Shown here piece by piece: positions 4,684 to 8,888 of a stretch of DNA of 64,000 nt (the stretch's first letter is position 1; the number at the start of each line of letters is the position of its first letter). The position numbers and the translations under genes are program-made. This DNA comes from Tolypothrix bouteillei VB521301 (lineage in GTDB: Bacteria > Cyanobacteriota > Cyanobacteriia > Cyanobacteriales > Nostocaceae). The stretch spans positions 4,484,895-4,548,894 of the forward strand of contig NZ_JHEG04000001.1 in the NCBI RefSeq assembly GCF_000760695.4, read 5' to 3'. Under the pieces are notes generated by a model. The model had not been told where the DNA came from, searched no databases, and saw nothing but the letters and a program-made list of their open reading frames with translations.

Positions 4684-4711
4684 AAGGACCAAGGAAAAAA
4701 AAACGTCAGCA

Positions 4712-4732
4712 CCCCGCACTAAAGTGACGGGG
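4712..4732 (+). repeat. Left-end hairpin of the IscB element
   Basis: Stem CCCCG (4712-4716) with CGGGG (4728-4732), continued by CAC with GTG around a TAAA loop. It mirrors the right-end hairpin at 8868-8888 with one compensatory base-pair change. It may serve both as the DNA end structure and as the first stem of the omega RNA. Confidence 0.7.
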
Positions 4733-4801
4733 CTTCATGCCCCAGAATTTTGGTTAGTTGACCAGCCTAAGTACTTCAAGTACTACGTTTAAAGGCAAGT
4801 C
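4712..4801 (+). ncRNA. Omega (HEARO-type) guide RNA scaffold, 5' part
   Basis: The region between the left end and the intron is non-coding and rich in helices: the CCCCG hairpin, an AGTAC/GTACT hairpin (4770-4784), and GTTTAAAGG (4787-4795), which is complementary to CCTTTAAAC at 7378-7386 beyond the intron. IscB proteins use an RNA encoded directly upstream of iscB whose guide comes from sequence just outside the left end. Adding this part to 7280-7424 gives about 235 nt, the usual omega RNA scaffold size. Identity is inferred from position, size and pairing, not from an alignment. Confidence 0.6.
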
Positions 4802-5411
4802 GTGCGATTCGTTCACTCGAAATGAGTACTTATACTCAGGGATGAGTGGCAAGGGAATAAGAACCGAGTAATCGGAACAGAACCTTTGACAACTAAATGA
4901 CCATGAGGGTGATTACCTTAGAAATCCTAGAGTACAAGAATAAAAGTCCCTCCCCGTAGGTGCAACGGTGACAGCATCACCTCCAAGGTAGCGACTAGCC
5001 ATCAATCCTTGAAGCGAGGTGAAAAGGAGGTAAACTGGTAGCCCAAACTGGTTCTCCTTCGAGCATGAACCTATGAGTAGCGTCAGCGAAGATGTGCCTT
5101 AACCGTCGTAATCTAAAACCAGCGCAATCAGGCTGTCGCTGGAGCCAAAAGGCAATGGATAAGGGGCTGGCAAGTAACTTGTTGACCAGCACGCACTCCC
5201 AATAAACCCGGCGGATAGCATCGCTCTAAAGGTTTAAATAATGGTCATTTGGAACGAAGTAACCTAACATCCACTCTCAGTCGGTCGATACTGAGTAGGT
5301 GCTAACCGTATGTGGTGTTAGGAAAGATTGGGTCAGAAGCGAACGCCTCGTGTAATAACGAGGATATGCTGACGGACTCACGGTGATTTGGAATGTAGAG
5401 TCACAGTAGCA

Positions 5412-7181
5412 ATGAATATGGCTAATACACGAGGAGTCACAACAGGAATAAACGATGAAGCAACCCCTTCTTTAAGGGAAAAGCCGACTCATGAAACTGA
5501 AAATGACAAATCGATGGTGGACTGGAGACACATCGACTGGCGCAAGCTGGAAAAACGTGTTTTTAAGTTGCAAAAACGAATCTACAAAGCCTCTGAACGT
5601 GGTGATGTCAAAGCAGTTCGTAAACTCCAAAAGACGCTGATGAAGTCCTGGAGTGCAAAGTGTCTCGCGGTTAGACGGGTAACACAAGACAACCAAGGTA
5701 AGAAGACGGCGGGTGTGGACGGTGTGAAATCACTGACCCCAAAGCAACGTCTCACCTTAGTTGCTAAATTAAAACTAGGTTCAAAGGTATCGCCTACCAG
5801 GCGCGTATGGATTCCAAAACCTGGTAAGGACGAAAAAAGACCATTAGGCATCCCGACAATGTATGACCGCGCACTGCAAGCTCTCGTTAAAATGGCACTT
5901 GAGCCAGAATGGGAGGCTAAATTTGAACCTAACTCATATGGGTTCAGACCAGGGCGTTCATGCCACGATGCTATCGAAGCAATATTTAATAGTATGAGGC
6001 ACAAACCAAAATTTGTGCTTGATGCCGATATATCAAAGTGCTTCGATAAAATCGACCATTTGGCACTGCTTCAAAAATTAAATACATTCCCCACCATTCG
6101 CCGACAAATTCGTGCTTGGTTAAAAGCGGGAGTGATGGATAATCAGCAGTTCCAAGAGACATCTGAGGGAACACCGCAAGGCGGAGTCATTTCTCCACTA
6201 TTAGCGAATGTAGCCCTCCACGGAATGGAAGAACGGATTAAACAATATGCTGAAACATTGCCCGGTTTAAAACGGGAAAATCGCAAAAGTATATCATTAA
6301 TTCGTTATGCCGATGATTTCGTAATTCTACACGAAAATCTAACCGTTGTCCAAAGATGCCAGATAATTATATCTGAATGGTTAAAAAGCATGAATTTAGA
6401 GTTGAAGCCTTCAAAAACACGCCTAACTCACACTCTAAACAAGTATAAGGAAGAAGAACCAGGATTTAATTTTCTTGGTTTTAATATCAGGCAGTTTTCA
6501 GTGGGTAAACATCACTCGAAAAAGGGCTTCAAAATAATCATCACCCCAAGTAAGGAAAAGCAGAGGATACACTACGAGCGAATAGCTAGTATCATCGATG
6601 ACTACAGCACAGCGCCGCAAGAGGCGCTAATTAGTCGGCTCAACCCGATAATTAAAGGATGGTCTAACTACTATTCGACAGTAGTAAGCAGTGAAGCTTA
6701 CGCCAACCTCGATAGTCTTATGTATCCAAAACTTAGAGCTTGGGCAAAACGCCGTCATCCAAATAAATCAGGGAAATGGGTAGCTAAGAAATATTGGCGC
6801 ACTATTGGCGGTGATAATTGGGTATTCGCCACAACGTACAAAGGTAATCTCAGGTGGTTAACAAACCACACAGATACACCCATAGTACGCCACGTAAAAG
6901 TAAAAGGCGATGCTAGTCCATACGATGGCAACCTAATTTATTGGAGTTCAAGAATGGGCGCACACCCCGAAATGCCAAAAAGAGTGGCAACACTCTTAAA
7001 GCAACAGAAAGGAAAATGCGCTCATTGCGGATTGTATTTTCGTGAAGAAGATGTAATGGAGATTGACCACAAAATACCCCTAAGCAAAGGGGGTAAAGAC
7101 GAATATAAAAATCTCCAGCTATTACATAGACACTGCCATGATATAAAAACAGCTGAAGATGGTTCGGTTGGGGGTATGTAA
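5412..7181 (+). CDS. ltrA: Group II intron-encoded reverse transcriptase/maturase with HNH domain
   Basis: The protein (about 589 residues from ATG 5412) has an N-terminal RT0 region, the RT palm with RVWIPKPGK, RPLGIPTMYDRALQ, YGFRPGRSCHDAI and the catalytic YADDF near residue 300, then the maturase thumb (GWSNYY). The C-terminal HNH nuclease shows CAHCG, IDHKIPLSKGG and HRHCHD. It binds its intron RNA to aid splicing, then nicks target DNA and reverse transcribes the intron into it. The ORF is open upstream to 5388; ATG 5412 or 5418 are plausible starts. It sits in domain IV of the intron and reads through without frameshift. Confidence 0.92.
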   Translation: MNMANTRGVTTGINDEATPSLREKPTHETENDKSMVDWRHIDWRKLEKRVFKLQKRIYKASERGDVKAVRKLQKTLMKSWSAKCLAVRRVTQDNQGKKTAGVDGVKSLTPKQRLTLVAKLKLGSKVSPTRRVWIPKPGKDEKRPLGIPTMYDRALQALVKMALEPEWEAKFEPNSYGFRPGRSCHDAIEAIFNSMRHKPKFVLDADISKCFDKIDHLALLQKLNTFPTIRRQIRAWLKAGVMDNQQFQETSEGTPQGGVISPLLANVALHGMEERIKQYAETLPGLKRENRKSISLIRYADDFVILHENLTVVQRCQIIISEWLKSMNLELKPSKTRLTHTLNKYKEEEPGFNFLGFNIRQFSVGKHHSKKGFKIIITPSKEKQRIHYERIASIIDDYSTAPQEALISRLNPIIKGWSNYYSTVVSSEAYANLDSLMYPKLRAWAKRRHPNKSGKWVAKKYWRTIGGDNWVFATTYKGNLRWLTNHTDTPIVRHVKVKGDASPYDGNLIYWSSRMGAHPEMPKRVATLLKQQKGKCAHCGLYFREEDVMEIDHKIPLSKGGKDEYKNLQLLHRHCHDIKTAEDGSVGGM

Positions 7182-7205
7182 TTAGACAAGCACCAAATTA
7201 CTGAG

Positions 7206-7239
7206 GAGCCGGATGAGGTGAAAGTCTCACGTCCGGTTT
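7206..7239 (+). ncRNA. Group II intron domain V
   Basis: A 34-nt hairpin with the AGC catalytic triad at 7207-7209, a GAAA tetraloop at 7220-7223, and the two-base bulge region ACG at 7229-7231. This is the most conserved part of the ribozyme and fixes the intron's strand and 3' end. Confidence 0.9.
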
Positions 7240-7279
7240 TGAAGACGAGTCGCTCTGGCGACGGAGCGGCTTAGTTTAC

Positions 7280-7424
7280 TAAAGACTCACCAGCAGATGC
7301 GTAGCCAGTTTGCTGCTCTGAGATCGAATAGTTAAACATCTTTACGAGGGGTAAAGCAGTGCTATTTGAAAGTACTACCTTTAAACATTGGCGAGGCTAA
7401 TATCACCCGAAAGGAGGGACACTT
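7280..7424 (+). ncRNA. Omega (HEARO-type) guide RNA scaffold, 3' part
   Basis: Non-coding region between the intron and iscB. It begins TAAAGACT, which with AGTC at 4798-4801 forms a hairpin once the intron is removed. It also holds a CAGCA/TGCTG helix (7291-7315), a CTTTAC/GTAAAG hairpin (7340-7356) and CCTTTAAAC (7378-7386), which pairs with the 5' part. The iscB ribosome site (AAGGAGGG, 7411-7418) lies at its 3' end, so the RNA and the mRNA leader overlap, as in other iscB loci. Confidence 0.6.
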
Positions 7425-8825
7425 GTGTCCAAAGTCTTTGTAATTGATTCAGAAAAAAGACCGTTAAATCCAATTCATCCAGCACAAGCAAGACAACTTT
7501 TGAGAAATGGAAAAGCAGGAGTTTTTAAACATTTTCCTTTCACAATTATTTTGAAAGAAGCAAAACCCAATCAACAAATTCAAGTATTACGATTAAAAAT
7601 TGACCCAGGTGCCTCCGTAACTGGTATTGCTTTAGTTAATGATTCAACAGGAGAAGTGGTATTTGCTGCTGAAATTAAACATAGAGGCTTTGCAATACGC
7701 GAATCTCTTACTTCAAGAAGACAACTTCGTAGAAGTAGAAGAAATAGAAAAACTAGATATCGCCAACCCAGATTTAACAATAGAGCTAAAACAAAAGGAT
7801 GGCTGCCACCAAGTTTGCAAAGCCGCATTGCTAATATAAAAACTTGGGTTGAAAGATGGCGGAAGGTTTCACCAATTGAAGCAATATCTCAAGAACTAGT
7901 CCGCTTTGATATGCAATTAATTCGCAACCCAGATATCCAGGGTAAGGAGTACCAGCAGGGGACTTTACAGGGTTATGAGACACGCCAGTATCTTCTGGAA
8001 AAGTGGGGAAGAAGTTGTGCTTACTGCGGTATCAAAGATGTTCCCTTGCAAATAGAACATATTCTTTGTCGTGCCAAAGGAGGAAGTAACTCAATTACGA
8101 ACCTAGCATTATCGTGCGAAAAATGTAATCTCAAAAAAGGCACAAAAGATATCAGAGAGTTCCTTAAAAAAGACCCTGCAAGACTAGAGAAAATTTTGAA
8201 ACAATCAAAACAACCCTTACGGGTTCGCCCTTCGGGTTCGCCAGTCGCCTACGGCGGGAAACCCGCCTGCAGCGCTGGACTCACCAGTTCCCAGGGCGCG
8301 GGAAACCCGCCTTCAGGACTGGACTCACCGCTTGCAGATGCAGCCGCAGTTAACTCAACTCGATTTGCACTCCTGTCAGTTTTAAAAGAAACTGGATTGC
8401 CTGTAGAAACGGGTTCAGGTGGTCTGACAAAGTTTAATAGGACTCAACGAGAGTTACCAAAGACACACTACTTTGATGCAGCTTGTGTTGGTAAATCAAC
8501 TCCAGAAAAATTAATTGTCAAAGGAGTTAAACCATTACTAATTACAGCGAATGGTCACGGAACAAGACAAATGTGCGGCACAAATAAACACGGTTTCCCA
8601 ATTCGTCATCGCACAAGAAAACAAATACATTTTGGATTTCAAACTGGCGACATAGTTAAAGCAGTTGTCACTAGCGGGAAAAAAGTTGGTCATTACGTTG
8701 GTCGCGTGTTATGCCGCGCATCTGGCAGTTTTGATATTGCTACTAAGACAGGAAGAGTAGCAGGGATTAGCTATAAATATTGCAAATCTATTCACAAAAA
8801 AGATGGGTATAACTATGCATTTTAG
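7425..8825 (+). CDS. iscB: IscB RNA-guided nuclease (OMEGA), with in-frame repeat insertion
   Basis: A 466-residue IscB, ancestor-type relative of Cas9. Order: N-terminal PLMP-like region (VFVIDSEKRPLNPIHP), RuvC-I with D60 (KIDPGASVTGIAL), arginine-rich bridge helix (residues 98-117), RuvC-II with E157, HNH domain with zinc cysteines C198/C201/C231/C234 and H212, RuvC-III with H348 and D351, then a C-terminal target-interaction part. All catalytic residues are present, so DNA cleavage looks possible. Residues about 266-304 are a proline/glycine-rich insert derived from a palindromic repeat between HNH and RuvC-III. The start is GTG 7425, six bases after a strong AAGGAGGG. There is no adjacent tnpA. 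Confidence 0.92.
   Translation: MSKVFVIDSEKRPLNPIHPAQARQLLRNGKAGVFKHFPFTIILKEAKPNQQIQVLRLKIDPGASVTGIALVNDSTGEVVFAAEIKHRGFAIRESLTSRRQLRRSRRNRKTRYRQPRFNNRAKTKGWLPPSLQSRIANIKTWVERWRKVSPIEAISQELVRFDMQLIRNPDIQGKEYQQGTLQGYETRQYLLEKWGRSCAYCGIKDVPLQIEHILCRAKGGSNSITNLALSCEKCNLKKGTKDIREFLKKDPARLEKILKQSKQPLRVRPSGSPVAYGGKPACSAGLTSSQGAGNPPSGLDSPLADAAAVNSTRFALLSVLKETGLPVETGSGGLTKFNRTQRELPKTHYFDAACVGKSTPEKLIVKGVKPLLITANGHGTRQMCGTNKHGFPIRHRTRKQIHFGFQTGDIVKAVVTSGKKVGHYVGRVLCRASGSFDIATKTGRVAGISYKYCKSIHKKDGYNYAF
8219..8334. repeat. Palindromic repeat pair inserted in frame inside iscB (copies 2 and 3)
   Basis: Two adjacent units, 8241-8285 and 8284-8329, each beginning CCAG and ending CTGGACTCACC around GGGAAACCCGCC. 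A GGGTTCGCCCTTCGGGTTCG leader precedes them. They add about 39 codons, free of stops, to iscB. Removing them joins KQPL to DAAAVNSTR, the continuous sequence normal in IscB proteins. Confidence 0.8.
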
Positions 8826-8867: not shown

Positions 8868-8888
8868 CCCCGAACTAAAGTTACGGGG
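8868..8888 (+). repeat. Right-end hairpin of the IscB element
   Basis: CCCCG (8868-8872) pairs with CGGGG (8884-8888), extended by AAC with GTT around a TAAA loop. Same architecture as the left end at 4712-4732. The ribosome site of the next gene (GGAGG at 8902-8906) begins just beyond it. Confidence 0.7.

Follow-up and report, generated by a model that had tools for sequence, protein, structure and literature searches.

The stretch of DNA analysed here, which we call the window, spans 64,000 nucleotides of the Tolypothrix bouteillei VB521301 genome (positions 4484895-4548894 of contig 1, in a genome of 9.95 Mb in 2 contigs). It carries an IscB element in which the omega-RNA gene lies in two halves, with a group II intron between them. 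The features to which we refer throughout are the following.

4705..4801, + strand: 5' half of the omega RNA (HEARO), which is also the 5' exon of the intron (from HEARO, the relatives' profile and alignment A1)
4787..4795, + strand: 5' strand of a helix spanning the intron (8 consensus pairs, 4787-4794; A1 columns 110-117)
4788..4793, + strand: IBS2, TTTAAA (5/6 positions pair with EBS2, by eye)
4794..4801, + strand: IBS1, GGCAAGTC (against EBS1, 5 Watson-Crick pairs, 2 G-U pairs and a mismatch at -1)
4802..7279, + strand: group II intron, GTGCG...TTTAC, 2,478 bases (Rfam domains 5 and 6, RT/maturase reading frame; ends set by empty sites)
5112..5117, + strand: EBS2, TCTAAA (by eye; 6/6 pairing with TTTAGA of the copy B exon)
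5176..5183, + strand: EBS1, AACTTGTT, in a hairpin loop (one base unlike copy B, matching the IBS1 change there)
5388..7181, + strand: intron-encoded protein with reverse transcriptase, maturase and HNH domains (RVT_1, RVT_N, GIIM, HNH)
7203..7243, + strand: intron domain 5 (RF04357, 62.4 bits; RF00029, 55.2 bits, with an RF00029 cut-off of 40)
7243..7279, + strand: intron domain 6, in which one A, at 7273, is bulged (folding energy -20 kcal/mol, z -4.83)
7280..7412, + strand: 3' half of the omega RNA (HEARO), which is also the 3' exon of the intron (from the relatives' profile and HEARO)
7378..7386, + strand: 3' strand of the helix spanning the intron (A1 columns 229-236; the bases pairing with 4787-4794 are 7379-7386)
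7425..8825, + strand: iscB, 466 aa (NF040563, 432.8 bits against a cut-off of 175; RRXRR and HNH domains; PDB IscB chains by sequence)
8868..8888, + strand: possible right end of the element, CCCCG..CTAAAGT..ACGGGG, resembling a hairpin at 4711-4732 (by eye)

Rfam recognises the omega RNA in two pieces. HEARO matches 4705-4864 at 40.5 bits and 7185-7406 at 73.5 bits, both below the gathering score of 83, and the second of these matches runs through intron letters on its 5' side. Profiles built from 14 intron-free relatives alone match 4705-4799 (E 1.8e-17) and 7280-7412 (E 4.6e-24), so that the conserved RNA breaks off and resumes at the ends of the intron. The 5' exon finishes ...GTTTAAAGGCAAGTC, its last base being 4801, and the 3' exon opens with TAAAGACTCACC at 7280. 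A preliminary description of this DNA had begun the omega-RNA region at 4712, and here it needs correction: the conserved left end of the RNA lies near 4705. On the other side the 3' half ends at about 7412, directly upstream of iscB, which starts at 7425. The window iscB contains an in-frame repeat at about residues 265-303 (window ~8217-8335) that recurs at dozens of places in the genome and is absent from the IscB of copy B, the second copy of this arrangement described below.

The insert resembles known mobile group II introns (RF00029, TIGR04416) in its GUGCG start, AC end, domain 5, bulged A in domain 6 and EBS1/IBS1 pair and, like those with an RT-maturase-HNH protein, it encodes its own protein and is present in several copies. 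The protein matches TIGR04416 at 341.2 bits (cut-off 300) from an intact reading frame, and the bulged A at 7273 is expected to be the branch point. The preliminary description had claimed that an omega-RNA region is interrupted at 4801/7280 by a complete group II intron, and the profiles that stop and resume there, domains 5 and 6 and the RT/maturase reading frame bear this out. Judged from sequence, then, the RNA encoded at 4705-4801 and 7280-7412 is a HEARO/omega RNA, as had been proposed (the HEARO pieces and the 14-relative profiles are joined below by an alignment and its covariation), and the insert between its halves is a complete group II intron.

We looked for the empty site in 80 related iscB loci taken from named genomes, calling the halves split where the 5' half preceded the 3' half by over 170 bases. 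The halves are adjacent, with 0-121 bases between the profile matches, in 60 of these loci, a number that includes the 14 relatives of alignment A1. They are split apart in none of the 80, 20 of which could not be judged (8 with a 3' half only and 12 with no match near the iscB start, some of the 12 beginning near a contig end). This comparison with intron-free relatives, set beforehand as a possible refutation, found the region conserved and reading through the join. The same genome also holds omega RNAs that have no iscB within ~2 kb, at L230:2221-2501 (HEARO, 138.4 bits), L231:2081-2364 (115.9 bits) and L232:2115-2328 (82.0 bits, slightly below the cut-off). L230 and L231 read AAGAGTTAAAG straight across the intron site, and all three of these solo RNAs might serve IscB proteins in trans.

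Among the 12 loci lacking a profile match near the matched iscB start are three, L096, L121 and L138, whose iscB reading frame is itself split by a group II intron (near codons 37, 411 and 46, respectively); the intron protein of L096 and L121 is 67-68% identical to that of the window intron. These loci resemble the window in having a group II intron within an IscB element but differ in that the protein-coding part is split, while the omega RNA is whole, without an intron, in L096 (HEARO, 151.0 bits) and L138 (150.5 bits).

The complementarity across the intron to which the preliminary description had drawn attention is real: GTTTAAAGG (4787-4795) is exactly complementary to CCTTTAAAC (7378-7386). 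By itself a 9-base complement is weak evidence, given that 65 of 1000 dinucleotide shuffles reach an equal or greater length. Stronger evidence comes from alignment A1 (n=16), made from the joined RNAs of the window (copy A) and of copy B together with 14 relatives, which were picked from the 80 iscB loci for being intron-free, having both halves and sharing the same long RNA form. The joined copies align with these relatives unbroken at the join (a wider set comprised 28 plus L040). RNAalifold predicts 52 pairs from A1, with at least one double change in 29, and 98.1% of the cells are paired; shifting the partners by 1-3 columns lowers this to 28.9-38.6%. The pairs were, however, counted on the very alignment that yielded the consensus structure, which favours it. 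In the intron-spanning helix (columns 110-117/229-236) 99.2% of the cells are paired and 5 of the 8 pairs show double changes; the helix is intact in both copies, with an A-U pair in A where B has G-C. One other consensus helix (columns 85-87/240-242) has a strand on either side of the intron, and an unspliced RNA would therefore have to pair the strands of both over 2.5 kb. The AGTC-TAAA-GACT hairpin suggested for the junction fared less well. Its letters are present, but by eye the stem is kept in none of the 15 other aligned sequences, although several of these can form alternative stems of 3-6 pairs across the join.

We also scored the RNAs with a home-made structure score, trained on the 14 relatives, which were themselves scored leave-one-out. 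The joined sequences reach 194.6 (copy A) and 206.0 (copy B), while the unspliced 3' pieces score 96.7 (A) and 88.6 (B), the unspliced 5' pieces -97.0 (A) and -94.2 (B), and the best of 30 shuffles -104.8. The left-out relatives score 215.9-337.2, in every case above both joined copies. In the score's own alignment 44 of the 52 modelled pairs stand in joined A and 48 in joined B. By this measure the joined A and B RNAs clearly belong to the omega-RNA family but are weaker members of it than 14 of 14 relatives.

The genome contains four full copies of the intron: A, in the window, and B, C and D. Introns A and B are 99% identical, and C and D are identical to each other and 86% identical to A. 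Copy B occupies the same omega-RNA site as A. The omega-RNA exons of A and B show 88% identity over 90 bases and 83% over 141 bases, and two stretches of their iscB genes show 80% and 75%. The introns are thus far more alike than the sequence around them, indicating that one moved later or that the introns were exchanged. All 25 differences between them, in 2498 columns, fall within the first 618, and the remainder is identical, giving the pair a mosaic look, as if by conversion or recombination. Copy C interrupts the omega RNA of an element from a different IscB subfamily, at a point 31 bases in from the left end of that element. Three paralogs of this element in the same genome (L041-L043) are uninterrupted at the copy C site, as are five of six elements examined in G193, the other genome from the genus; the sixth gave no 5' match. 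HEARO is not reported by Rfam in L038 or L041-L043, and what leads us to class the C-type RNA as an omega RNA is its conservation and its location ahead of iscB rather than any match to the family. The 5' exon of copy D is a 31-base left end like that of copy C, with a weak omega profile match (E 0.0015), and its 3' exon amounts to a single T, after which comes another, truncated copy of the intron (194 bases matched; L039:1972-4656). From their exons we count three of the four full copies as certain omega-RNA insertions and the fourth as a probable one. At least 13 group II domain 5/6 matches are present in the genome, among 150 scored of 627 candidates.

The targeting sequences follow the sites. 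In copy A, EBS1 pairs at 7 of 8 positions, two of them G-U, with a C-A mismatch at IBS1 -1. In copy B, EBS1 pairs 7/7 (one G-U) with the exon AAGAGTT, a sequence common to L230, L231 and, as judged by eye, 8 of the 14 relatives in A1; this EBS1 and that of A differ by one base, and the change in A fits the exon base that it faces. In copies C and D, EBS1 is ACTACGA and pairs 7/7 with the exon TCGTAGT. EBS1 thus differs between the two omega-RNA insertion sites and suits each. Pairing of EBS2 with IBS2, judged by eye, is 6/6 in B, 5/6 in A and 5/5 in C.

Some match to the intron is found in 160 of 217 genomes of the host family, many of these being partial matches that cover its protein part. 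A search for the exact A/B junction pattern in the 217 family genomes and in 291 genomes sampled from the order returned this genome alone, apart from false matches in G018 and G140, which have neither omega RNA nor iscB. The C-site pattern likewise was found only in this genome among the 217, apart from one false match in G127, which has no omega, intron or iscB match. Both patterns need fixed letters, and diverged cases would escape them. Of 30 C-type IscB loci, intron sequence is present in L194 only, which is copy C itself.

With the help of its maturase, a complete group II intron whose EBS and IBS sequences fit splices itself out, and it retrohomes to sites that offer this pairing. The explanation that we favour, and consider likely, is that the intron entered omega-RNA genes by retrohoming and that splicing restores the scaffold IscB needs, making guide formation ribozyme-dependent. 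What we observe is a split omega RNA, a complete intron, empty sites, covariation and two insertion sites with fitting EBS1; from these we infer that the intron is spliced in the cell, that IscB takes up the spliced RNA and that retrohoming was the route. A retromobile intron would use EBS/IBS pairing to find a short target in the omega-RNA gene and insert there. In the window it sits where the RNA is unpaired, immediately 3' of a strand of the enclosing helix, a position that leaves the halves 2.5 kb apart in the precursor. Maturase-assisted splicing would then join 4801 to 7280, and the contiguous halves could fold into the scaffold and enter the IscB complex. The insertion would in that case be nearly harmless to the IscB element, with the guide from this locus hinging on the ribozyme; indeed, the guide RNA of the window locus probably forms only after intron excision. 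IscB itself would presumably depend on splicing too, unless the solo omega RNAs elsewhere in the genome supply it instead, as they might. Against this explanation we count the repeat within the window iscB, the copy A mismatches (C-A at IBS1 -1 and one in IBS2), the weak omega match of copy D (31 bases), the counting of pairs on the alignment that yielded the structure, and the detection of the intron site in one genome only. We also count the scores of joined A and B, for which relaxed selection could be the cause.

Those scores invite a less favourable reading, that the intron has disabled the omega RNA, such that splicing is weak, the RNA is drifting and IscB, if it is made, uses other omega RNAs in trans. 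The existence of L230, L231 and L232 gives this reading a source of guides. We nevertheless think it unlikely, given that the intron is complete and has a fitting EBS1, most of the modelled pairs stand in both copies and the intron-spanning helix has been kept in each. Another objection concerns the mode of arrival. Intron-bearing IscB elements might simply have been copied, without separate retrohoming, and their introns later made alike by gene conversion, for which the mosaic distribution of the A/B differences could be taken as evidence. However, both omega-RNA types have many relatives that lack an intron, and the EBS1 change between A and B is matched by a change in the exon; we regard copying of this kind as distinctly improbable.

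Harder to set aside is the suggestion that omega RNAs are no special home for this intron family, which would enter any fitting target and find in IscB elements merely ordinary multicopy targets. Group II introns also occur within the iscB reading frames of L096, L121 and L138, and none of 29 related intron loci in other genomes, sampled from a longer list, has iscB or an omega-RNA half in its flanks (up to ~1.5 kb). On the other hand, three of the four full copies here interrupt omega RNAs, the 5' exon of the fourth is a 31-base omega left end, and two different omega-RNA sites are occupied with different EBS1 sequences. We lean slightly against this suggestion. Its counterpart is that an intron lineage has settled in omega-RNA genes of at least two subfamilies by changes in EBS1, splice-gating several RNA-guided nucleases of one cell with a shared maturase, and here we find ourselves evenly balanced between acceptance and doubt. 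Were it so, there would be no guide without ribozyme and maturase, the maturase would be shared in trans between loci, and the intron would be spread by IscB elements whose guide it restores.

As an IscB system the locus is otherwise conventional: it shares with IscB and its omega RNA (HEARO, RF02033; NF040563) the RuvC-like RRXRR and HNH domains, an omega RNA directly upstream and covarying helices, and departs from them in that its omega-RNA gene is broken by a 2,478-base group II intron. As a group II intron it departs from the known mobile ones in that its exons make up a guide RNA instead of coding for protein, and in that copies lie in such RNA genes here. The closest precedent combining such parts is the IStron, which joins a group I intron to an element of the IS605/IS607 type (PMC4227781). 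Like the window locus, it unites a self-splicing intron with an IscB/TnpB-like element. The two differ in that the IStron intron is of group I and the whole element is spliced from a host gene, whereas in the window a group II intron lies inside the guide RNA. We considered whether the window element is itself an IStron and rejected this identity, as the intron is group II, is inside the element and has omega RNA on both sides. At the window, in contrast to the IStron, splicing would mend the guide. Recent work reportedly describes a conflict between intron splicing and the TnpB guide RNA in IStrons. Our literature search, outside which most subscription papers and bioRxiv lay, found no description of a group II intron in an omega/HEARO RNA.

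If the favoured explanation is true, the activity of a relative of the Cas9 ancestor depends on a self-splicing retroelement, and two RNA-guided mobile elements are nested: EBS/IBS pairing directs the inner one and the omega RNA the outer one, whose guide the inner one mends. At the RNA level the prediction is simple, a single junction joining 4801 to 7280.

Several further observations deserve mention. Copy D (L039) is accompanied by a reading frame on the opposite strand that looks similar to photolyase, and by a tRNA cluster downstream. Omega-RNA 5' halves occur without a 3' half, and without a nearby match to the window intron, at L233:1995-2075 and L234:1878-1933. Finally, L044:2520-2836 is a 317-base HEARO RNA that holds a piece similar to the repeat in the window iscB.
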